Positions 7,024 through 46,587 of a stretch of 64,000 nt of DNA are shown here, one piece after another. A program made the position numbers and the translations under genes. The notes under the pieces were generated by a model. That model did not search any database, was not told the origin of the DNA, and saw only the letters and a program-made list of their open reading frames with translations. How positions within the stretch are numbered: position 1 is the stretch's first letter; each line of letters begins with the position of its first letter. The stretch comes from Ignavibacteriota bacterium (lineage in GTDB: Bacteria > Bacteroidota > Ignavibacteria > UBA10030 > SZUA-254), in NCBI GenBank assembly GCA_016212665.1, contig JACREZ010000016.1, positions 248,001 through 312,000 of the forward strand, given 5' to 3'.

Positions 7024-10005
7024 TTATCTGAGAAGCATGAGTTTCTTTGTATCAGTGAATGTTTGTTTCATTCCCTCCTCGTCAACCGATTCAACATTGA
7101 TGCGATAAAAATATACACCGCTCGGAAGATTGAAAGCATTGAAGGGTATTTCGTATTCTCCTTCTTCCATCTGTTCGTTATTGAGAAGCGTTGCAACTTC
7201 CTGTCCAAGCATGTTGAATATTTTTAAAGATACTAATGACGATTGACCAATGACAAATGACAACAGCGTTGAAGGATTAAAGGGGTTTGGGTAGTTCTGA
7301 TACAATGCAAACTCACCTGGCAATTCATCGAAAAAATCTGAGCGCGGAATTATTCTTGCCGGAAGAACTGCCGGATTGGATTTCAGAAAAGGGACTTCGA
7401 GCAGTTGCTTTGTGCCTGTCAATGAAAGAGAAGAACTGAATCCGCCGTCAGTGGTGTCAATGGCGCCTTCAAATGCAGAGAGTATATTATTGATGACAGT
7501 ATCAAGATTTGCATACCCGTACGCAGCATCGTACTGCGCTTTGCTGCGGAAGGATGAAACAATACTTCTTGCGCTCAGCATCGAGTCGGCAAGTCTGGCA
7601 ACTTCGTTAACCATCTTCCCATTAAGTGGATTAGACGTGCCATCATCATAGATCAACTCTCCAAAACCTGCTGGTGTGGCTTGAAGAGCGCTTGCGGCGA
7701 TACTGACTTTGAGCGCAAGAAGATTTGCAAACAATTTGTTATTGTGCTTCGTTGGCGGGAGTGATTTGTACATTCCAACGAGCGGCTTCGATGATGACAA
7801 CATATCAAAATTTTTTGCAGTTCCCAAATGAACGCCGGTTGTTTTATCGTACAAGGATTTCATAATGTCGTCGTATTTTGCATGGCTCACCCACGCGAAT
7901 TGTTTTGCATTATCAGGCATAGGAAATCCAGCAAGCAAGGGACCACCAAATGCGTTCTGTGCGAACAGTTCATACAGAACATTGATACGATTCGGCATCG
8001 GGAGCCGAAGAAGATTTTTTGAGAATGAAGAATCTGAAACATTTCCTTTTATTGTTTTAGGCAATGTCGCCCAACCGTATGATGCTTTGATTGCTTTTCC
8101 TTTGAACCCGATTCCATCAACCTGAACGATTGTTCCGCTATCGAGAGGTGTATAAGTTGTCACCTGCGCAAGATTACTCCAAGAGAACAATGTATCTGTT
8201 TTCGATTCTCCGCGTGTAATCGCGCCGGAAGTTTTCATTGTAAACTTTAACGTTAATGCCGATGTTTTGGGTGCCGTCAGTTTGAATTTGAATTCGACTT
8301 TATCCGCTTTCTTCTTCACAATCTTTCCTTGCTTTCCGATGTTGTCTTTATCGAATGCAATGCTGTCTGGTCGGAAACTCCGGTAAGTTCCAACATACGA
8401 AGAATCGAACATGAATGTAACCCGAAGCGTGTGTCTGCTGGAAACGTTTGTGAATGAATACGATGAAGAATTATCTGTCAAGACATCGTCAACGAAGAGA
8501 CTGTCAACTTTGTATCCTCGTTCCGGGTTGAATGTAAATGTTTGATCTTCTCCATCAAGGACAATCACATCGCCCGATGGTGAGACGCTTCCATGCTCGC
8601 CTGCTGAGGCTGTGATTGTGTATGCCCGTTCAAACGTTGCAGAGAGAGACTGTTCCGCTCGGACATTCGTAAATGTATAAGAAGAAATTTTTCCAAGCGG
8701 AGTTCCATTCGCATAAACATTTTTTATGATATAGTTTTCTACAGAAACTATCATAAAGGTCTGATTACTTCCAACAGGAACATACAGCATATCAAACCAG
8801 AGTGAAGGAGACGGAACAGGAACAATTGAGCCGCCAGTTTCTGCATTTATCGAAATCGGAATTACGTCCGCAGTTCTTCCTGGTCCGCCAAATGCACCTA
8901 TATCATTTCGCACAGTTCCTTTTGAGAATGATTGAGCAACCGAAGAAGAACCGGAGTCTGTAGGATCGTTATAAATCCCATCAGGATTTCCTGCATCTAT
9001 GCAAGGCGAGCCGTCAGCGAGATGAAAATCCGAATCACCAAACATCGGGTCTTGATTGATGTTTCCCGTCCCTGCAATTCCGCCTTCGACATCGTTGTAA
9101 GAAGCTGTGACAGTAGAGGTTCCGCCGACAGAAACTTGTGTGCCGGTGGTTTGTGAATTTCCCCAAACAATGTTATTGGTCATTTCTACAATTCCGCTGA
9201 TGAGAATTCCGCCGCCTCTTCCCGCGAGTGTACTTCCGGTCCCGCTCGATGAATTTCCAACGATAGTGTTATTCTCAAATATTTTTGGAGTAGATGATGC
9301 GCCGACAGTCCAGATTCCTCCTCCGCCAAATGTGGGAGCTCCCGCAACTGCCTGAAAGACAGAATTATTTTCGAGAACATTATTTTTAATAATTGCGCCG
9401 CTGTAATTGAGAACAATACCGCCGCCGTACATTCCTTTATTTGAGCCTATGTAATTGTTCAGGATGTGCGGGTTACTATCGCCTGAACGGATTGCCCCGC
9501 CGCCTGCGCTTCTGCTGTTCGGAAACATCCGGATTGCTTCGTTGTTGATGATGCGGTTATTTTGAATTGTTGGCGATGAATATTGTATGAGAATTCCACC
9601 CCCTTCAACATAGGGAGTCGTTCCGTGTTCATCCTTCCAGTTAGTTCCGGTTCCTCCTGTCAAGGTAAAACCTTCCAGCACCGCGGTTGAATCTTCTCCT
9701 GAAATAATGAGAACGCAACTTGCAGTATCGGAATAGACCGGATTGCCGCCGAAGATGACCGTGTTCAAAATGTCCAGTTGATTGTGTGTGAAAATGTATC
9801 GGCTTGCGACAACAATGTTTTTGCCGCGGTAGTTGATGTTTTCCGAGTACAAACCGTTATCAACCAGCACGGTATCGCCGTTCGACGCCGTAAGGATTGC
9901 TGATTGAATTGTTGTGTACGATGTTGGCACTCTCAGGACATCTGACAGAGTGAGTGTTTGACAGAGTATCAAACAACAAAGAAAAGAGGTGAATCGTATG
10001 TTCAT
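7024..10005 (-). CDS. Large secreted right-handed beta-helix protein with T9SS sorting domain
   Basis: 993 residues from the ATG at 10005, which starts a signal peptide (MNIRFTSFLCCLILCQTLTL); the frame is open further upstream, but a promoter-like sequence lies inside that extension. Residues about 20-370 form a parallel beta-helix with repeated 'NNxIxxN' turns (IQNNRIINNEA, ILNNYIGSNKG, IKNNVLENNSV, FENNTIVGNSS). Two InlB-type 'bacterial repeat' modules follow (ITASAGEHGSVSPSGDVIVL ... YSFTNV). A 350-residue region of unknown fold comes next, and the end is a type A T9SS tail (LYQNYPNPFNPST to KKLMLLR). Beta-helices of this kind often bind or cleave polysaccharide; no catalytic motif is evident. 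Within the tail, bases 7231-7264 are a translated piece of the simple repeat seen between other genes. Confidence 0.85.
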   Translation of the reverse strand: MNIRFTSFLCCLILCQTLTLSDVLRVPTSYTTIQSAILTASNGDTVLVDNGLYSENINYRGKNIVVASRYIFTHNQLDILNTVIFGGNPVYSDTASCVLIISGEDSTAVLEGFTLTGGTGTNWKDEHGTTPYVEGGGILIQYSSPTIQNNRIINNEAIRMFPNSRSAGGGAIRSGDSNPHILNNYIGSNKGMYGGGIVLNYSGAIIKNNVLENNSVFQAVAGAPTFGGGGIWTVGASSTPKIFENNTIVGNSSSGTGSTLAGRGGGILISGIVEMTNNIVWGNSQTTGTQVSVGGTSTVTASYNDVEGGIAGTGNINQDPMFGDSDFHLADGSPCIDAGNPDGIYNDPTDSGSSSVAQSFSKGTVRNDIGAFGGPGRTADVIPISINAETGGSIVPVPSPSLWFDMLYVPVGSNQTFMIVSVENYIIKNVYANGTPLGKISSYTFTNVRAEQSLSATFERAYTITASAGEHGSVSPSGDVIVLDGEDQTFTFNPERGYKVDSLFVDDVLTDNSSSYSFTNVSSRHTLRVTFMFDSSYVGTYRSFRPDSIAFDKDNIGKQGKIVKKKADKVEFKFKLTAPKTSALTLKFTMKTSGAITRGESKTDTLFSWSNLAQVTTYTPLDSGTIVQVDGIGFKGKAIKASYGWATLPKTIKGNVSDSSFSKNLLRLPMPNRINVLYELFAQNAFGGPLLAGFPMPDNAKQFAWVSHAKYDDIMKSLYDKTTGVHLGTAKNFDMLSSSKPLVGMYKSLPPTKHNNKLFANLLALKVSIAASALQATPAGFGELIYDDGTSNPLNGKMVNEVARLADSMLSARSIVSSFRSKAQYDAAYGYANLDTVINNILSAFEGAIDTTDGGFSSSLSLTGTKQLLEVPFLKSNPAVLPARIIPRSDFFDELPGEFALYQNYPNPFNPSTLLSFVIGQSSLVSLKIFNMLGQEVATLLNNEQMEEGEYEIPFNAFNLPSGVYFYRINVESVDEEGMKQTFTDTKKLMLLR

Positions 10006-10038
10006 GTGAATCATAAATAAGTTGTGGAAGAATATATT

Positions 10039-10067
10039 ACTGTATCCAGTGTACGAAAGAAGTACAA
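10039..10067 (-). promoter_or_regulatory. Candidate sigma-70 promoter of the beta-helix T9SS gene
   Basis: Minus strand: TTGTAC (10067-10062), a 17-bp spacer, TACAGT (10044-10039), about 34 bp ahead of the ATG at 10005. This supports the downstream ATG as the start. Confidence 0.5.
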
Positions 10068-10145
10068 GTGTTAGAACACAAATGCAGGGAAGGTGAATGT
10101 GAAGCAGTGAACGAAGGAAGGAGTGAAGGGAAGGGTGAATCATTT

Positions 10146-20397: not shown

Positions 20398-21597
20398 ATG
20401 AAACCTGTCATCGTCGTTCACCACCACGAAATTACACTCAAGCGGGACAATCGTTCATACTTCGAAAAGCAATTGATGAAGAATGTTCGCACCGTGTTAC
20501 TCGGATTTTGCAAATCATTTGTTCTGCGCGGCGGCTATGGGCGATTTGTCATTGAAGAAATCCCGAATGAACAAGTTGATGCAATCGCTCAACGTTTGAC
20601 GCAGGTGTTCGGTCTGGCGAATATTTGTATCGGCGTGAAAGTCAATCAAAGCGTTGATGAGTTTAATTCTGTAGCGGAACAATTACTTGCAGACAGAAAA
20701 TTTTCCACAATTAAAGTTGAGACGAAGCGACCCGACAAACGATTTCCTCTTACGTCTGTTGAAGTAAACACTCAAGTCGGAGCGTTTCTCTGCGTGAAGT
20801 TCGGTGTGCGGGCAAATCTGACACAGCCGGACGAGACACTCTATATCGAGATAGTGGAGGGAGTTGCGTATGTTTATCGCTCGAAAATGCAAGGCGCTGG
20901 CGGTTTGCCGGTTGGTGTAAGCGGGAAAGTGCTTTCGCTTCTCTCTGCCGGATTCGATTCGCCGGTCGCTTCATGGCGAATGATGAAGCGGGGATGCAAC
21001 GTTAACTTTGTCCACTTCCACAGTATGCCGTACACAAGCCAATACTCGGTTGACCAGGTGAAACAGTTGGTGAAGATTTTGACCGAGTATCAATTCCAAT
21101 CGCGTCTCTTCATCGTTCCGTTTGCAGATGTACAAAACGAAATTGTTCTGCAAGCGCCGCAACACTTGCGCGTGGTTCTTTACCGTCGTTTCATGATTCG
21201 TGTTGCTGAAACAATCGCCAGACAAAAGCGAGCGGAAGCATTGGTAACGGGCGAAGCAGTCGGACAAGTTGCATCGCAAACGCTCCGTAACATCCGTGTG
21301 ATTGATGAAGCCGCATCCATGCCGATTCTCCGTCCGCTTGCCGGTATGGACAAAGAGGAAACGATGCACACTGCCCGACTCATCGGCACGCACGATATTT
21401 CCAAAGAGCCGTATGATGATTGCTGTTCGTTCCTCGCGCCGCGCAATCCCGCCACGTGGGCATCGCCGGAAGAAGTTCTTGAAGCAGAATCGAAGTTGAA
21501 TGTCCCGCAGTTGCTTGAGTTGGCGCTGAGCAAAACAACATCGGAAATATTTCTTGTGCCGCAGTTACAGAAGGAGAAAGTGAATGAAGGAAAATAA
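20398..21597 (+). CDS. thiI: tRNA 4-thiouridine synthetase ThiI, form without rhodanese domain
   Basis: 399 residues from the ATG at 20398; the frame extends back to 20344 through repeat DNA. An N-terminal ferredoxin-like segment and THUMP domain (about 60-165, 'RPDKRFPLTSVEVNTQVGAF') precede a PP-loop adenylation domain (LLSAGFDSPVASW at 181-193). The sulfur-accepting Cys pair in 'KEPYDDCCSFLAPRNP' corresponds to the conserved active-site region of ThiI. The protein ends before the rhodanese domain of the E. coli enzyme, as in many short ThiI forms that take sulfur directly from a cysteine desulfurase. Product: s4U8 in tRNA, possibly also thiazole for thiamine. The end overlaps the next frame by 14 bp. 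Confidence 0.93.
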   Translation: MKPVIVVHHHEITLKRDNRSYFEKQLMKNVRTVLLGFCKSFVLRGGYGRFVIEEIPNEQVDAIAQRLTQVFGLANICIGVKVNQSVDEFNSVAEQLLADRKFSTIKVETKRPDKRFPLTSVEVNTQVGAFLCVKFGVRANLTQPDETLYIEIVEGVAYVYRSKMQGAGGLPVGVSGKVLSLLSAGFDSPVASWRMMKRGCNVNFVHFHSMPYTSQYSVDQVKQLVKILTEYQFQSRLFIVPFADVQNEIVLQAPQHLRVVLYRRFMIRVAETIARQKRAEALVTGEAVGQVASQTLRNIRVIDEAASMPILRPLAGMDKEETMHTARLIGTHDISKEPYDDCCSFLAPRNPATWASPEEVLEAESKLNVPQLLELALSKTTSEIFLVPQLQKEKVNEGK

Positions 21598-23800
21598 TAT
21601 CTTTGTACTCGTTCCAACGCTCCTGCGTTGGAATGAAAAGACAAACGCTCCGCGTTTTTTCCGCAGAGCGGAATTGGTTGCCGTTCCTACGGAGACCGTA
21701 GGAACGAGAGTTTGGTTTTTGACTTTCCTATTGTATTTCCTTTTTTATGGTTTGATATCTGCCCAACCCTTTACCCGCGAACTCGAATCCATCCCCTTCA
21801 TTTTTGGCAACGACACACTTGCGCAACCCTTTATCGGTGGAATTGACGGACCGAATCACCGTTTTGTTGATATAGATTCCGATGGCGATTATGATTTATT
21901 TGTGTTCGATGCCGACCAGAATGTAGATTTCTACCGAAACGAAGGAACTCCTCAAACGTTTGATTTCAAAATGAAATTGAATGAAATCACTCTTCCTCAG
22001 TTTACCGCGTGGTTTTATTTTACCGACCTGAACGGCGATTCCAAAATTGACCTCTTATGCGATAACGGCGGAAACGGAATCAGTTACTACAAAAATATTG
22101 GAACGGTTCACGAACCGGATTTCGTTCTCGAAATACAGACGATGCTCGACACATCGAACAGTCAGATTCTTGCCGGGTTCCTCAGCGTTCCTTCCTTCAC
22201 TGACCTTGACGGTGACAACGATTTTGATTTCTTCACCAGTGATTTTAACGGCAACATCATCCGTTACGAAAACATCGGCACGGCGACAACTCCTGCATTT
22301 CGTTATGCTGATGAACAGTTTCAGGGAATTCAAATATTAAATGATTCATGTTTGAATAATGGATTGAGTCAGTCATCAATCTCAAATGCAAGACACGGGG
22401 GAAGTCTCTTCGCATTCGCGGATGTTGATGGGAATCAGTCGCTTGAATTATTTATGGGTGACATGAACTCGTACAAACTGTTCTACATTAAAAATCATGG
22501 AACGGCAACTCAACCCGATTTATTTTGTACCGGAGACCAGATATTGCCTGAGGATGCTCAGCTCACAACTGTTTATAATCAACCGAACTTTGTGGATATT
22601 GATAACGACCACGACCTCGATTTGTTTGTCGGAACGTTTGTGAACATGGGACAATCGTCTCCGCCCTATCACTCATTCTGGTTTTATGAAAATCAGGGAG
22701 ATTCTGTTTCGCCGAATCTTCAACTTGTGACAAAAGATTTTCTCAGAACGCTCGATGTCGGGAAGAATGCTCATCCCGCGTTTGCTGATATCAACAACGA
22801 TGGCTTGTCCGACCTTGTGCTTGGAACGTTGAGTGGACAACTTTCGTATTTCAAAAATACAGGAACGAAGACACAACCTGCGTTTACACTGGAAGACTCC
22901 TCCTTCTCCGATATCGGTGGAAATTTCGCGTACGCCCCCACGTTTGTTGATATCAACGGAGACGGAAGAAAAGATTTGGTTCTCGGACGATTCGACGGAC
23001 AGGTGGAAATCTATTATGGATTTGATTCAATCATAACAATTTATAATTACAAGCCGGATGATTCACTAATGACGGGACAATTTGCCGTCCCGGCGTTTAC
23101 TGATATTGATGGTGATAATGATTTCGATTTGTTTGTGGGAACATCAAACGGGAAAATTCGATTGTACCGGAACAACGGTAATACAATGCAATTTATAGAT
23201 ACACTCATTACTTCATCGTTTCAATCCATAGATGTCGGAGAAAATGCAAAACCATTGTTTGTTGATATTGATAATGACGATGACGACGATTTGTTCATCG
23301 GCAACTCGGAGGGGAAAATGTTTTTCTTTGAAAATGATGGAACGGGTCAATTTACAGAACGAACAAATCGTTATGCGGACATTCATGGTATGAAAGAATC
23401 CGCCCCTGCGTTTGCTGATGTTGATAGCGACGGCGACCTTGATTTGTTTGTCGGAACATCGAAAGGTGGATTACAATTCTATCGAAACGCTAAGCCGGTT
23501 GGAGTGGACGAATCAAACCGGGAACCTCAAACCCCGAACCAAATTATGTTGTTCCAGAATTATCCCAATCCGTTCAACCCCTCGACGAATTTCGGATTTC
23601 GGATTGCCAATTTCGGATTGGTTACATTAAAAATATTTGATGTATTGGGACGTGAAGTTGCAATTGTGGTGAATGAAACGAAGCAAGCGGGAAATTACTC
23701 AGTTTCTTGGGATGCTTCTGGTTTGCCAAGCGGAGTGTACATTTACAGGCTGAGCACGGGACAGAAAGTACTCAGCAAGAAACTTCTTCTCGTTCGGTAA
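21584..23800 (+). CDS. Secreted FG-GAP/VCBS-repeat protein with T9SS sorting domain
   Basis: Up to 738 residues. At least nine FG-GAP-like calcium repeats are visible (FVDIDSDGDYDLFV, FTDLDGDNDFDFF, FVDIDNDHDLDLFVGT, FADINNDGLSDLVLGT, FVDINGDGRKDLVLG, FTDIDGDNDFDLFVGT, FVDIDNDDDDDLFIGN, FADVDSDGDLDLFVGT), predicting a beta-propeller. The end is a type A T9SS tail (FQNYPNPFNPST to KKLLLVR). The start is uncertain. The ATG at 21584 overlaps thiI, and its first 43 codons are made of an intergenic hairpin repeat; the signal-peptide-like stretch 'LTFLLYFLFYGLISAQ' begins only at a TTG at 21719. A natural start may have been displaced by the repeat. Confidence 0.85.
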   Translation: MKENNIFVLVPTLLRWNEKTNAPRFFRRAELVAVPTETVGTRVWFLTFLLYFLFYGLISAQPFTRELESIPFIFGNDTLAQPFIGGIDGPNHRFVDIDSDGDYDLFVFDADQNVDFYRNEGTPQTFDFKMKLNEITLPQFTAWFYFTDLNGDSKIDLLCDNGGNGISYYKNIGTVHEPDFVLEIQTMLDTSNSQILAGFLSVPSFTDLDGDNDFDFFTSDFNGNIIRYENIGTATTPAFRYADEQFQGIQILNDSCLNNGLSQSSISNARHGGSLFAFADVDGNQSLELFMGDMNSYKLFYIKNHGTATQPDLFCTGDQILPEDAQLTTVYNQPNFVDIDNDHDLDLFVGTFVNMGQSSPPYHSFWFYENQGDSVSPNLQLVTKDFLRTLDVGKNAHPAFADINNDGLSDLVLGTLSGQLSYFKNTGTKTQPAFTLEDSSFSDIGGNFAYAPTFVDINGDGRKDLVLGRFDGQVEIYYGFDSIITIYNYKPDDSLMTGQFAVPAFTDIDGDNDFDLFVGTSNGKIRLYRNNGNTMQFIDTLITSSFQSIDVGENAKPLFVDIDNDDDDDLFIGNSEGKMFFFENDGTGQFTERTNRYADIHGMKESAPAFADVDSDGDLDLFVGTSKGGLQFYRNAKPVGVDESNREPQTPNQIMLFQNYPNPFNPSTNFGFRIANFGLVTLKIFDVLGREVAIVVNETKQAGNYSVSWDASGLPSGVYIYRLSTGQKVLSKKLLLVR
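21608..21708. repeat. Double-hairpin intergenic repeat captured in a reading frame
   Basis: TTCCAACGC-TCCT-GCGTTGGAA (21612-21633) and CGTTCCTACG-GAGAC-CGTAGGAACG (21682-21706), with a third weaker pair (CGCTC...GAGCG) between them. This lies between thiI and the signal peptide of the FG-GAP protein and is open in that protein's frame. Confidence 0.75.
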
Positions 23801-42829: not shown

Positions 42830-43006
42830 TTGATTTCTGATTGCAGATTTACGATTAATGATTTAGATTGAAACGATATGCGATATGAGATATGCGATGT
42901 GCGGAAGACAAAGTACATTTCTCAGTAAAACTTAAAACTCGAAACCCAAAACCCAAAACCCAAAACTCAAAACTCAAAACTTAACAACCTACAACCTACA
43001 ACCTAC
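42830..43006. repeat. Degenerate simple-sequence arrays ending at a start codon
   Basis: Three blocks: GATTTACGATTAATGATTTA, then CGATATGCGATATGAGATAT, then from 42926 an array of AAACCCAAAACCC, AAACTCAAAACTC and finally ACAACCTACAACCTAC directly before the ATG of the transporter gene at 43007. No hairpin or ribosome site. It fills the whole gap 42820-43006. Confidence 0.75.
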
Positions 43007-44326
43007 ATGACCAACACACAAACAATATCAACTTGGAAATTTCCCAAAGCATTCTGGACTGCCAACATCGTCGAGTTATTCGAGCGGGCGGCGTATTACG
43101 GAGTGTTCATCGCTGTCACTCTCTATCTCACCGATGTCGTCGGGTTCGATGATGTGGACGCCGCGTGGTTAAGCGGCTTCTTCTCGGCGGGAATGTATTT
43201 TCTTCCGCCGTTCACCGGAGCGTTTGCCGATAAAATCGGTTTCCGAAAAGCAATCTTACTGGCGTTTTCACTGTTAACTATCGGGTACTTCACGCTCGGC
43301 GCACTGCCGTACAAAGCCATGGTTGTTCCTGCGTTCGTCATTCTGATGTTCGGAGGCTCGTTCATCAAATCCATCATTACCGGTACGGTGGCAAAAACAT
43401 CCGACTCGGCTAATCGTGCAAAAGCATATTCTATCTTTTATGGAATGGTGAATGTCGGAGCGTTCCTTGGAAAGACCATTGCGTTTCCGCTTCGTCTGAA
43501 TCTTGGACTTGTCTCCATCAATTATTTTTCCGCGTTGATGACGTTGCTGGCGCTAATTACTGTCTATCTCTTTTACAAAAATGTTGATATGCACGGCGAG
43601 GGAAAAAAGATTCGCGAGGTGTGGGACGGACTTGTTCGCATTCTGAAAAGACCGCGCTTGTTGATTTTAATTCTCATTGTCACTGGCTTCTGGATGATTC
43701 AACACCAGATGTATGCAACAATGCCGAAATATGTGTTGCGCACGGTCGGCGTTACCGCCTCACCCGAATGGATTGCCAACGTTAATCCGGCTGTTGTTAT
43801 GACATGTGTTGTTCTCATAACAGCGATGATGAAGAAGGTAAAGGCGGTCAGTTCTATGTTTGTCGGTATGGTATTGATGCCATTCTCTGCAATTTGTATG
43901 GCGTCAAGTCCGTTACTCGAATCAATTGCCGGGCATCAGGTTTCTATTTTCGGGTTGTTTACTGCTCATCCGGTTACGGTGATGATGATTGTGGGTATAA
44001 TGTTCCAGGGACTTGCCGAGTGTTTCATCTCCCCGCGCTATTTAGAATTTTTCTCACTTCAGGCGCCCAAAGGTGAAGAAGGATTATATCTCGGATTCAG
44101 TCACTTACACTCATTTCTTGCATCGGTGCTTGGCTTCGGCATCTCCGGTTACTTGTTGATGAATTATTGTCCCGACCCGAAAACATTATCGCCCGAACAA
44201 ATGGTTCACGCATACGACAATGCAAATTATATCTGGTATTATTTCTCTGCTATCGGATTTGTTTCAGCCGTCGGGCTTGCTATTTATTCGAAAGTAACGG
44301 CAAAGATTGATGCGAAGAAGCGGTGA
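43007..44326 (+). CDS. POT/PTR2-family proton-coupled transporter (MFS)
   Basis: 439 residues with about twelve membrane helices. The ExxER proton-coupling motif of the POT family is at residues 23-27 (VELFERAAYYG) in helix 1, with the family's 'GVFIAVTLYLTD' continuation. 'GFFSAGMYFLPPFTGAFADK' and 'SFIKSIITGTVAKTSDSANR' match the signature regions of helices 2 and 4. POT proteins import di- and tripeptides with protons; some members carry nitrate or other small molecules. The stop codon itself lies within the start of a GAGCGGTGAGC simple array. The start has no ribosome site, being preceded by the repeat array. Confidence 0.85.
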   Translation: MTNTQTISTWKFPKAFWTANIVELFERAAYYGVFIAVTLYLTDVVGFDDVDAAWLSGFFSAGMYFLPPFTGAFADKIGFRKAILLAFSLLTIGYFTLGALPYKAMVVPAFVILMFGGSFIKSIITGTVAKTSDSANRAKAYSIFYGMVNVGAFLGKTIAFPLRLNLGLVSINYFSALMTLLALITVYLFYKNVDMHGEGKKIREVWDGLVRILKRPRLLILILIVTGFWMIQHQMYATMPKYVLRTVGVTASPEWIANVNPAVVMTCVVLITAMMKKVKAVSSMFVGMVLMPFSAICMASSPLLESIAGHQVSIFGLFTAHPVTVMMIVGIMFQGLAECFISPRYLEFFSLQAPKGEEGLYLGFSHLHSFLASVLGFGISGYLLMNYCPDPKTLSPEQMVHAYDNANYIWYYFSAIGFVSAVGLAIYSKVTAKIDAKKR

Positions 44327-44370: not shown

Positions 44371-44406
44371 CTGGAATACGTGACTACACAACGTTACAGA
44401 CTATAA

Positions 44407-44450
44407 ATGCAAATGACGAATGACAAATGACCAATAACAAATGACAAAAG
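44407..44450. repeat. Octamer-like simple-sequence array ahead of a start codon
   Basis: AAATGACGAATGACAAATGA and CCAATAACAAATGACAAAAG, period about 8, ending 4 bp before the ATG at 44455. Its minus-strand reading matches the minus-strand coding stretch at 7231-7264 inside a T9SS tail. Confidence 0.8.
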
Positions 44451-44454
44451 AAAG

Positions 44455-46485
44455 ATGATGAACATGTTACCCAGAATCTTCACAGTGTTAATCATCATCG
44501 TGTGCGTCTGCATGCCAGTTCTTTCACAGTTCCCGAACATCAGAGTCAGCAGTGTTTCTTCCAATGACCCGGAAGAAGTGAGCATTGCAATCAATCCGGT
44601 TAACCCGCTCAATCTCGCGGCGGGAGCGAATATCAATTATTACTATTACTCCACGAACGGCGGACAAAGTTGGACGCAAGGGCGACTCAGTTCTTCGTAT
44701 GGAGTTTGGGGCGATCCCGTTGTTACGTACGACGCGGATGGTAATTTATATTTCGGACATCTTTCCAATCCGCCGTCGCCGGGATATTGGATTGACCGCA
44801 TCGTTGTACAAAAATCTACCAACGGCGGACAAACATGGAACAACGGAGCCGGCATCGGGTTCAGTCCGCCAAGTAAAAATCAGGACAAAGAATGGCTTAT
44901 CGTAGATTGGACAAACTCGCCGTATCGCAACAATGTCTATATGGCGTGGACGGAGTTTGATAGTTACGGAAGTTCCAGCGTTCTTGATAGCACGCGAATT
45001 CTTTTCTCCCGCACAACTGATGCCGGCGCAACGTGGTCGTCGCCGGTTCGCATCAGCGACCACGGCGGCAACTGCATTGACGAAGATGAAACAGTTGAAG
45101 GCGCAGTGCCTGCAGTCGGACCGAACGGCGAGGTCTATCTTGCATGGTCGGGTCCGCTTGGAATTATGTTTGATAAATCAACCGATGGCGGCGTGACATG
45201 GGGAACGGATGTCTTTGTTACGCCGCAACCCGGCGGTTGGGATTATGCAATCCCCGGAATTTACCGCGCAAATGGCTTACCGATTACCGCATGCGATATC
45301 AGCAACTCTCCGCATCGCGGCAATGTTTATGTTCAGTGGACTGACCAACGGAACGGAACGGGCAATACGGATGCATTCATTATCAAATCAACCGACGGAG
45401 GCGCAACGTGGGGAAATGTTGTGCGGGTGAATAACGACACGACAACGCGCCACCAGTTTTTTTCATGGATGACAGTTGACCCTATGACGGGAGTCGTGTA
45501 TGTCTGCTTCTATGATAGAAGAAACACCACCGGCAACGCCACTGATTTCTATGTTGCAAAGTCAACCGATGGCGGCGAGACGTTTACCAATTTCAGAGTG
45601 AGCGATTCGTCCTTCACACCGACGTCAAGTATTTTCTTTGGTGATTATTCTTGCATAGCCGCACTTGAGGGGAAGGTCTATCCGATTTGGATGCGACTTG
45701 ACGGAAGTAAACTCAGCGTCTGGATTGCGCCGTTTGATGATACCTACCATGCCAGTTTGTCGGTCCGTGAAAAATGGAACATGGTTTCCGTTCCTCTTGC
45801 CGTCAATGATTTCCGGAAGAGCGAATTGTTCCCGTATGCGGAATCGCCTGCGTTTGCCTACGAAGGGAGTTACGTCGTCAAAGAAACGCTTGCGCTCGGT
45901 GCTGGGTACTGGATGAAATTTCCTTCGCCGGACAGCATTCAACTGTTGGGAGTACAGGTTACCCGCGAAACGCTTGATGTACAAGAAAGTTGGAACATGC
46001 TCGGTTCGATCTCAGAGCCTGTAGCAGTAAACAACATTGTGAGTATTCCTCCGGGAATAATTTCCACGCCGTTTTATTCGTTCGATGGAACAAGATACAA
46101 TCCGGTTGATACGATTCATCCCGGGACGGCAACGTTTGTGAAGACAAATCAGGATGGGCAACTTCTTCTTGCATCTGCGGCACAAGCACGTGGGAAGATT
46201 CTTCAAACAGAAAATATTGAACAATCGCCTGTGTACTTTTCATCAAGCAATACTATCACCTACGAAGTAAAAGAACACGGCAACGTTACACTGAAAATAT
46301 TCGAACGTGAAGGAGAAGCGATTGCAACGCTTGTTGACGAAGTAAAAGATGCAGGAACGTATCAGGTGAAATGGAAACCTGAACGAGAACAACCCGGCGT
46401 ATATCGTTTTTGGTTGTGCACGCGTTCAGGTTCAGAGAACGAACCGGTGGTGGAGACGGGGAAGTTGATGATGTATGGAAAATAA
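44455..46485 (+). CDS. Secreted BNR/sialidase-like repeat protein with T9SS-type tail
   Basis: 676 residues (or 675 from the second ATG). Signal peptide 'IFTVLIIIVCVCMPVLSQ'. Residues about 20-430 form a beta-propeller with six Asp-box motifs (STNGGQSW, KSTNGGQTW, RTTDAGATW, KSTDGGVTW, KSTDGGATW, KSTDGGETF). Two copies of the short 'WNM(V/L)..(V/I)' module follow at about 440-580 (WNMVSVPLAVND, WNMLGSISEPVA), shared with the beta-helix protein at 35928-38093. The end has the sorting-domain pattern 'VTLKIFEREGEAIATLVDEV ... GTYQVKWK' but a divergent last strand. Asp-box propellers include sialidases and many non-enzymatic binders. No sialidase arginine triad or catalytic Asp could be assigned, so catalysis is not claimed. 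Confidence 0.82.
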   Translation: MMNMLPRIFTVLIIIVCVCMPVLSQFPNIRVSSVSSNDPEEVSIAINPVNPLNLAAGANINYYYYSTNGGQSWTQGRLSSSYGVWGDPVVTYDADGNLYFGHLSNPPSPGYWIDRIVVQKSTNGGQTWNNGAGIGFSPPSKNQDKEWLIVDWTNSPYRNNVYMAWTEFDSYGSSSVLDSTRILFSRTTDAGATWSSPVRISDHGGNCIDEDETVEGAVPAVGPNGEVYLAWSGPLGIMFDKSTDGGVTWGTDVFVTPQPGGWDYAIPGIYRANGLPITACDISNSPHRGNVYVQWTDQRNGTGNTDAFIIKSTDGGATWGNVVRVNNDTTTRHQFFSWMTVDPMTGVVYVCFYDRRNTTGNATDFYVAKSTDGGETFTNFRVSDSSFTPTSSIFFGDYSCIAALEGKVYPIWMRLDGSKLSVWIAPFDDTYHASLSVREKWNMVSVPLAVNDFRKSELFPYAESPAFAYEGSYVVKETLALGAGYWMKFPSPDSIQLLGVQVTRETLDVQESWNMLGSISEPVAVNNIVSIPPGIISTPFYSFDGTRYNPVDTIHPGTATFVKTNQDGQLLLASAAQARGKILQTENIEQSPVYFSSSNTITYEVKEHGNVTLKIFEREGEAIATLVDEVKDAGTYQVKWKPEREQPGVYRFWLCTRSGSENEPVVETGKLMMYGK

Positions 46486-46487
46486 CA

Positions 46488-46587
46488 TGGTAGGTCAGAC
46501 ATTCCTGATGGTAGGTCAGACATTCCTGTCTGACAGACACGTGGTAAGAACACGAAACGATGACAGGCAGGAATGCCTGTCCTACCA
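46488..46587. repeat. MITE-like inverted-repeat element, copy 1
   Basis: Ends GGTAGGTCAGACATTCCTG and CAGGAATGCCTGTCCTACC are imperfect inverted repeats of about 23 bp around a central ACACGTGGTAAGAACACG. The left end is partly doubled (ATGGTAGGTCAGACATTCC occurs twice in tandem). Copy 2 is 50 bp further on. The whole gap 46486-46798 holds only these repeats and an A-rich stretch. Confidence 0.8.

Follow-up and report, generated by a model that had tools for sequence, protein, structure and literature searches.

The minus-strand gene at 7024–10143 of the window (the whole analysed stretch of 64,000 nucleotides) raises the question of how simple-repeat DNA of a kind that also lies between genes came to supply codons of a protein-sorting domain.

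Sorting domain and repeat of the window gene

The gene encodes a 1039-aa secreted protein that was assigned to the T9SS type A sorting-domain proteins by matches above the curated cut-offs of both profile families, TIGR04183 (37.6 bits, cut-off 23) and PF18962 (32.5 bits, cut-off 27). The sorting domain (P0001 residues 951–1019; 7087–7293, minus strand) was delimited by profile match and AF2 model, and its tail is predicted to direct export and to be cleaved. The tail reads ...QNYPNPFNPST, then LLSFVIGQSSLVS, then LKIFN..., with the NPFNPST anchor at 7267–7287 and the 13-codon segment LLSFVIGQSSLVS, here called the slot, at 7228–7266, both on the minus strand; the slot DNA is CTGTTGTCATTTGTCATTGGTCAATCGTCATTAGTATCT. 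Repeat-like DNA directly after NPFNPST, which an earlier note on this DNA had described, was confirmed by TRF as a period-7 array, (TTTGTCA)n, at 7235–7263 (minus strand). The likeness that the same note had seen to an untranslated array at 44407–44450 also held, 19/20 bases being common over TTGTCATTTGTYATTGGTCA; TRF placed this intergenic (AAATGAC)n array, the same repeat as in the slot, at 44405–44448, a few bases ahead of an ORF at 44455. Its description of the unit as octamer-like was wrong, since TRF gave period 7 for slot and intergenic array alike and period 8 was ruled out by TRF and lag scans. The TTTGTCA/TTGGTCA unit presumably resembles one from Calothrix.

The lag-7 score of the slot (17/21) was reached by 0/300 synonymous recodings and 0/20,000 codon-order shuffles, which rules out chance or codon usage as the source of its periodicity; it was reached by 85/65,639 coding windows. 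Elsewhere in the genome the slot 31-mer recurred at 8 places (3 mismatches or fewer), the reversed pattern at 0.

The AF2 model of 7027–7329 (mean pLDDT 90.2) and that of a tail with a perfect GATTTCG slot (pLDDT 89.9) were both six-strand sandwiches, the alignment feeding each model containing both slot kinds. A C-terminal beta-sandwich, as in T9SS type A domains, was thus modelled (six strands, pLDDT 90), with strand 1 at residues 20–27 and strand 2 at residues 31–38. The slot occupies residues 22–34 and therefore covers the greater part of strand 1, the turn and the beginning of strand 2, more than the loop that the earlier note had supposed. The tail matched the T9SS sorting-domain chain 8glj_D by profile (E 0.006); Foldseek matches of the tail model were weak, with PorU 6za2 among them.

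Heptamer arrays across the genome and in sorting-domain tails

The window genome (3.91 Mb, 45 contigs, at least 150 sorting domains) was sampled for arrays over 1.46 of 3.91 Mb picked around tails. The sample held 78 period-7 arrays of about 50 heptamer classes, against 16 of period 8; period 14 is a harmonic, and other periods mostly reached 5 arrays or fewer (periods 4–6 and 9–13 at most 2 each). Arrays outside slots fell into 77 heptamer classes, and AATGAC-type patterns occurred 245 times in the genome (reversed control 32), so that the repeats are dispersed heptamers in having a unit of exactly 7 bases and many genomic sites.

At 42874–43007 of the window three heptamer arrays (CGATATG, AAAACTC, ACAACCT) adjoin one another upstream of an ORF at 43007. 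AATGACA arrays stand directly ahead of start codons at 44405–44455 of the window and at L332, L333 and L337, and in these last three the array's own ATG may serve as start; a scan with exact AATGACN x3 for start codons within arrays found only 4 arrays. At the centre of L339 a (TTTGTCA)n array lies inside an open frame of 412 codons, not a sorting domain, and reads NSHLSLVNCHS in frame. At 46487–46528 of the window, 2 bases past a stop codon, stands a perfect double 21-mer, ATGGTAGGTCAGACATTCCTG, similar to a family of dispersed palindromes.

Period-7 arrays were concentrated between genes (470 per 100,000 positions vs 38 in ORFs of at least 300 aa, by crude ORF calling; small ORFs 50), and in the slots of 97 NPFNPST tails their density was 8362, about 220x that of other long ORFs and 18x that between genes. 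Arrays of periods 5, 6 and 8–11 numbered zero in these slots. Lag-7 identity was 0.49 and 0.42 within 42 nt after the anchor and about 0.25 through most of the adjoining sequence, 200 nt upstream and 120 nt downstream. The enrichment directly after NPFNPST for which the earlier note had proposed a check was therefore borne out over the 97 tails. Neither outcome that the note had named as fatal, a lack of further repeat-bearing tails or the same signal in codon-preserving nulls, was found, because further tails exist and 19/97 tails deviate from the synonymous null at p<=0.01.

Heptamers of at least four families were found in the slot: GATTTCG, read as DFGFRISDFG; GTTATCA/GTTATTC/GTTATAA, read as VISYQL or VIRYQL; TTTGTCA, read as LSFVIG; and ATTATCA, read as IINYQL. 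In a sister genus (G009, G014; L130, L150) a further one, AATTCTCAATTGCTAATTCACAATTGACAATTCTG, was seen, reading FSIANSQLTIL. The distance to the next conserved block was exactly 13 residues in 101/104 resolvable tails of the window genome, and this constancy rules out insertion of extra sequence for heptamer slots: the array appears to replace the segment without lengthening it, which corrects the 'invasion' of the earlier note. A phase-variable contingency locus was likewise set aside, slot length being constant and the frame open in both the window genome (G000) and its same-genus relative (G002).

Where residues agree, codon identity among GATTTCG-class slots was 0.82, far above the flanks (0.58 and 0.47) and the codon-usage expectation (0.38). 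Codon usage is thereby ruled out as the cause of their likeness, and the likeness of these slots lies in shared DNA rather than in protein convergence. The GTTATNN class (0.53 in the window genome, flanks 0.45–0.49; 65% in the relative) is less diagnostic because AT-rich codons for a VIxYxL strand already come near period 7.

Arrays were also seen at two other protein sites in the window genome. Six lie in linkers just ahead of a sorting domain (L047 843–878, L050 850–884, L085 478–508, L110 9351–9384, L111 835–873, L112 16158–16190), where AAACCTG-like and related arrays, different in each paralog, encode the linker (NLKPET or similar) between a proline-rich stretch and FxLxQNYPNPF. Signal-peptide-like N-termini carried arrays in 14/247 cases vs 1/247 downstream, a weaker signal because other periods were raised as well; arrays there encode the hydrophobic core, e.g. 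MKVKYFLGFGFWVLGFAFVFAQ from (TTTTGGG)n (sites: L079 8732–8776, L061 11315–11368, L088 6988–7030, L043 15252–15282).

Anchors followed by GATTTCG arrays were found in 25/98 genomes of the order and by GTTATNN arrays in 45/98 (reversed controls zero). In named Ignavibacteria contigs the slot segment also carries in-frame inserts resembling dispersed palindromes. Inserts seen in the loop between strands 1 and 2 were SSPLAKGxTEEGFV, SLALRERVSEGRV, TLRQAQSD, VIARETKQS and VVETGRAPSLRL (L276, L279, L315, L326; L251, L275, L270, L280, L282, L300, L329). The palindrome CCTCCCCTTTGGCAAAGGGGAGG had 26 sites in its relative's genome (control 0), where four tail loops match it; within the window genome and its same-genus relative, exact 16-mer sharing of palindromic insert copies was weak.

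Switching, sharing and origin of slot sequences

Tails of the window genome and its same-genus relative, both draft assemblies, were joined into 39 reciprocal-best pairs. In the 24 pairs whose two slots were of one class, identity within the slot was 0.77; four pairs carried different heptamer families at 75–83% upstream identity, with amino-acid identity of 0.15 in the slot, 0.86 upstream and 0.72 downstream. The gene at 7024–10143 belongs to one of these four. Its block is collinear with contig C561 of the relative across nine genes, and the ortholog there has the slot VIRYKLKGTSLVT from GTTATACGTTATAAGTTAAAAGGT, of GTTATNN type; a more distant ortholog, that of G008 (55% identity), shows a plain slot, TITFALPNASIVT. 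Of the three orthologs one thus has (TTTGTCA)n, one (GTTATNN)n and one a plain slot, the last in a nearly array-free genome (AATGAC-type array matches: G008 1, G000 245, G002 112). The second T9SS protein of the window (21584–23800, plus strand), syntenic in the relative, has an unswitched slot of the (GATTTCG)n class, NFGFRIANFGLVT (23588–23626, plus strand), the first 30 bases of which are identical between the orthologs with flanks 62–83% identical.

Exact or near-exact slot strings also lie between genes (at L213 exact over 31 nt), and the flanks of the copies inspected are unlike tails. The TTTGTCA type had 27 matches in the sample, 2 in tails and 25 elsewhere; a GTTATAA...AAAAGT string had 18/19 matches in tails. 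Both capture from arrays and spread from tail to tail therefore seem to be needed. In 40 relatives, slot matches rose with the number of arrays of another heptamer; Spearman coefficients were 0.68 and 0.64 overall and 0.76 and 0.71 among members of the family, measures that ignore kinship and the number of tails per genome. The 14 array-poor genomes had 5 slot matches and 13 array-rich genomes 280.

We consider it probable that dispersed heptamer repeats repeatedly overwrite a structure-compatible segment of T9SS tails and then spread between tails. The source would be the pool of short, mostly intergenic period-7 arrays, hundreds in number and diverse in sequence, that Ignavibacteria of this group carry; DNA from it would repeatedly replace the 13-codon stretch flanked by NPFNP[ST]T and [LV]K[VI][YF][DN]. 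A heptamer array in an open frame would be read as a 7-residue repeat, and since some heptamers could yield the alternating hydrophobic pattern of strand 1, such replacements would still fold and be retained; most arrays elsewhere in genes would be purged. Once there, a slot might be copied among the roughly 150 paralogous tails, the conserved flanks supplying homology. The route could be copying from an array, guided by microhomology, or ectopic conversion with another tail as donor, and selection would retain versions with an open frame and a preserved strand. We infer the replacement step, of which no junction was caught, as well as the recombination route, near-neutrality and array formation. 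Clean switches number only four and come from a single genome pair, which counts against this explanation. The earlier note's proposal that repeats enter a tolerant part of the domain is nevertheless retained, on the enrichment, the unrelated heptamers, the ortholog switching and the plain outgroup slot, with the unit corrected to 7 bases, the segment to more than a loop, and the event to a replacement of unchanged length.

Compatibility with the strand does not by itself predict which heptamer wins, because (GATTTCG)n fits the plain-tail profile poorly: among 1170 heptamer classes TAACTGA ranked 3rd, GTTATTC 6th and GATTTCG 444th on a profile that may include aged array slots. Fit to this profile was thereby rejected as the full explanation.

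It is unlikely that a few ancestral periodic slots merely spread by ectopic conversion or duplication, with the intergenic arrays as bystanders. Such spread would fit the homogenised slot codons and complex strings like GTTATAAGTTATCAGTTAAAAGTTAAAAGT, which 18 tails from two genomes share and of which 1 copy lies elsewhere. It would also fit the clustering of slot class on a tree of post-slot residues, where at least 17 changes of the two main classes were counted against a shuffled mean of 37 (the tree is short and poorly resolved). Because of this partial clustering many slots appear to be inherited or copied from tails rather than newly captured. Against conversion as the only process stand the TTTGTCA type of the window, with most of its sample matches outside tails, the prediction of slot content by array content outside tails, and the exact slot strings between genes.

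We hold it to be quite doubtful that an active process recurrently writes dispersed repeats into one structurally fixed position of the T9SS tag, making the slot a genuine exchange cassette; if it did, non-coding repeats (heptamers here, palindromes in relatives) would be a standing source of protein sequence across the cargo set.

Convergence, by which strand-1 residue preferences and AT-rich codons would yield period-7 DNA without any repeat input, is very improbable. IxYxL encoded by ATT/TAT/TTA comes close to period 7 of its own accord, and synonymous recodings of the tails already average 9.1/21, but the observed mean was 12.2, with 19 tails at p<=0.01, and plain tails show none of these signals. 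The codon identity of the GATTTCG class disfavours it as well, as does the contrast in slot matches between array-poor and array-rich genomes; it may account for part of the GTTATNN class.

Selection for slot exchange, altering T9SS cargo recognition or limiting recombination between paralogous tails, has very little to recommend it. Acquired slots are as conserved as their flanks (0.77 vs 0.79), which would speak for selection, but a dedicated recombinase, donor locus or fixed borders were neither found nor specifically sought, and palindromes of other origin in the same loop suggest tolerance. The converse inference of the earlier note, that the intergenic arrays are decayed sorting-domain copies, would explain the strings common to slots and arrays and is scarcely credible given 77 heptamer classes outside slots, inspected intergenic copies that lack tail-like flanks, and array-rich genomes with zero slot matches (in G019, 46 ATTTCGG matches and 0 slots of that class).

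Comparison with known repeat systems

A limited literature search, which leaves novelty unproven, found no work linking T9SS sorting domains with dispersed repeats. The tails provide a quantified case in which non-coding tandem repeats repeatedly become a modelled beta-strand in one domain family of about 150 copies per genome, and therefore a natural experiment on the entry of repeats into proteins, the tolerance of a secretion tag and the movement of period-7 arrays. Functional meaning should not be read into T9SS-tail motifs such as FRISDFGFRIS or VISYQLxV.

TAACTGA direct repeats are period-7, mostly intergenic heptamers of bacteria including Bacteroidetes (MacGregor 2015, PMC4679880), most sets of which lie just before a start codon and for which no mechanism of transmission was evident. 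The (GTTATCA)n slots, read as VISYQL here, are by sequence the reverse complement of (TAACTGA)n, and a start codon directly follows one window array, as is usual in that system. There one heptamer dominates and few sets lie in ORFs, whereas here the heptamers number dozens and arrays recur in frame at one site of a single protein domain. Cyanobacterial STRR heptanucleotides (Mazel 1990, as cited in PMC4692102) and the heptameric G-rich repeats of Xanthomonas and Nostoc (PMC4692102) are likewise dispersed and over-represented between genes, but no domestication in one protein domain is known for them.

Rickettsia palindromic elements, as summarised where Ogata 2000 is cited (PMC2635572), are dispersed repetitive DNA in frame within genes, as here. 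By that account they are palindromic insertions adding residues to many proteins, unlike the non-palindromic replacement of fixed length in one domain family; the loop palindromes of relatives would be nearer to them than the heptamer arrays are. Membership of such a class was rejected for the arrays, whose repeats are direct, palindromes occurring only among the other loop inserts, and so was residue addition, heptamer slots keeping 13 codons in nearly all resolvable tails. In Borg ORFs, tandem DNA repeats also supply protein segments, often in extracellular proteins, and these segments are commonly intrinsically disordered (PMC9879509); in the T9SS tails, by contrast, the repeat encodes a confidently modelled strand of constant length.
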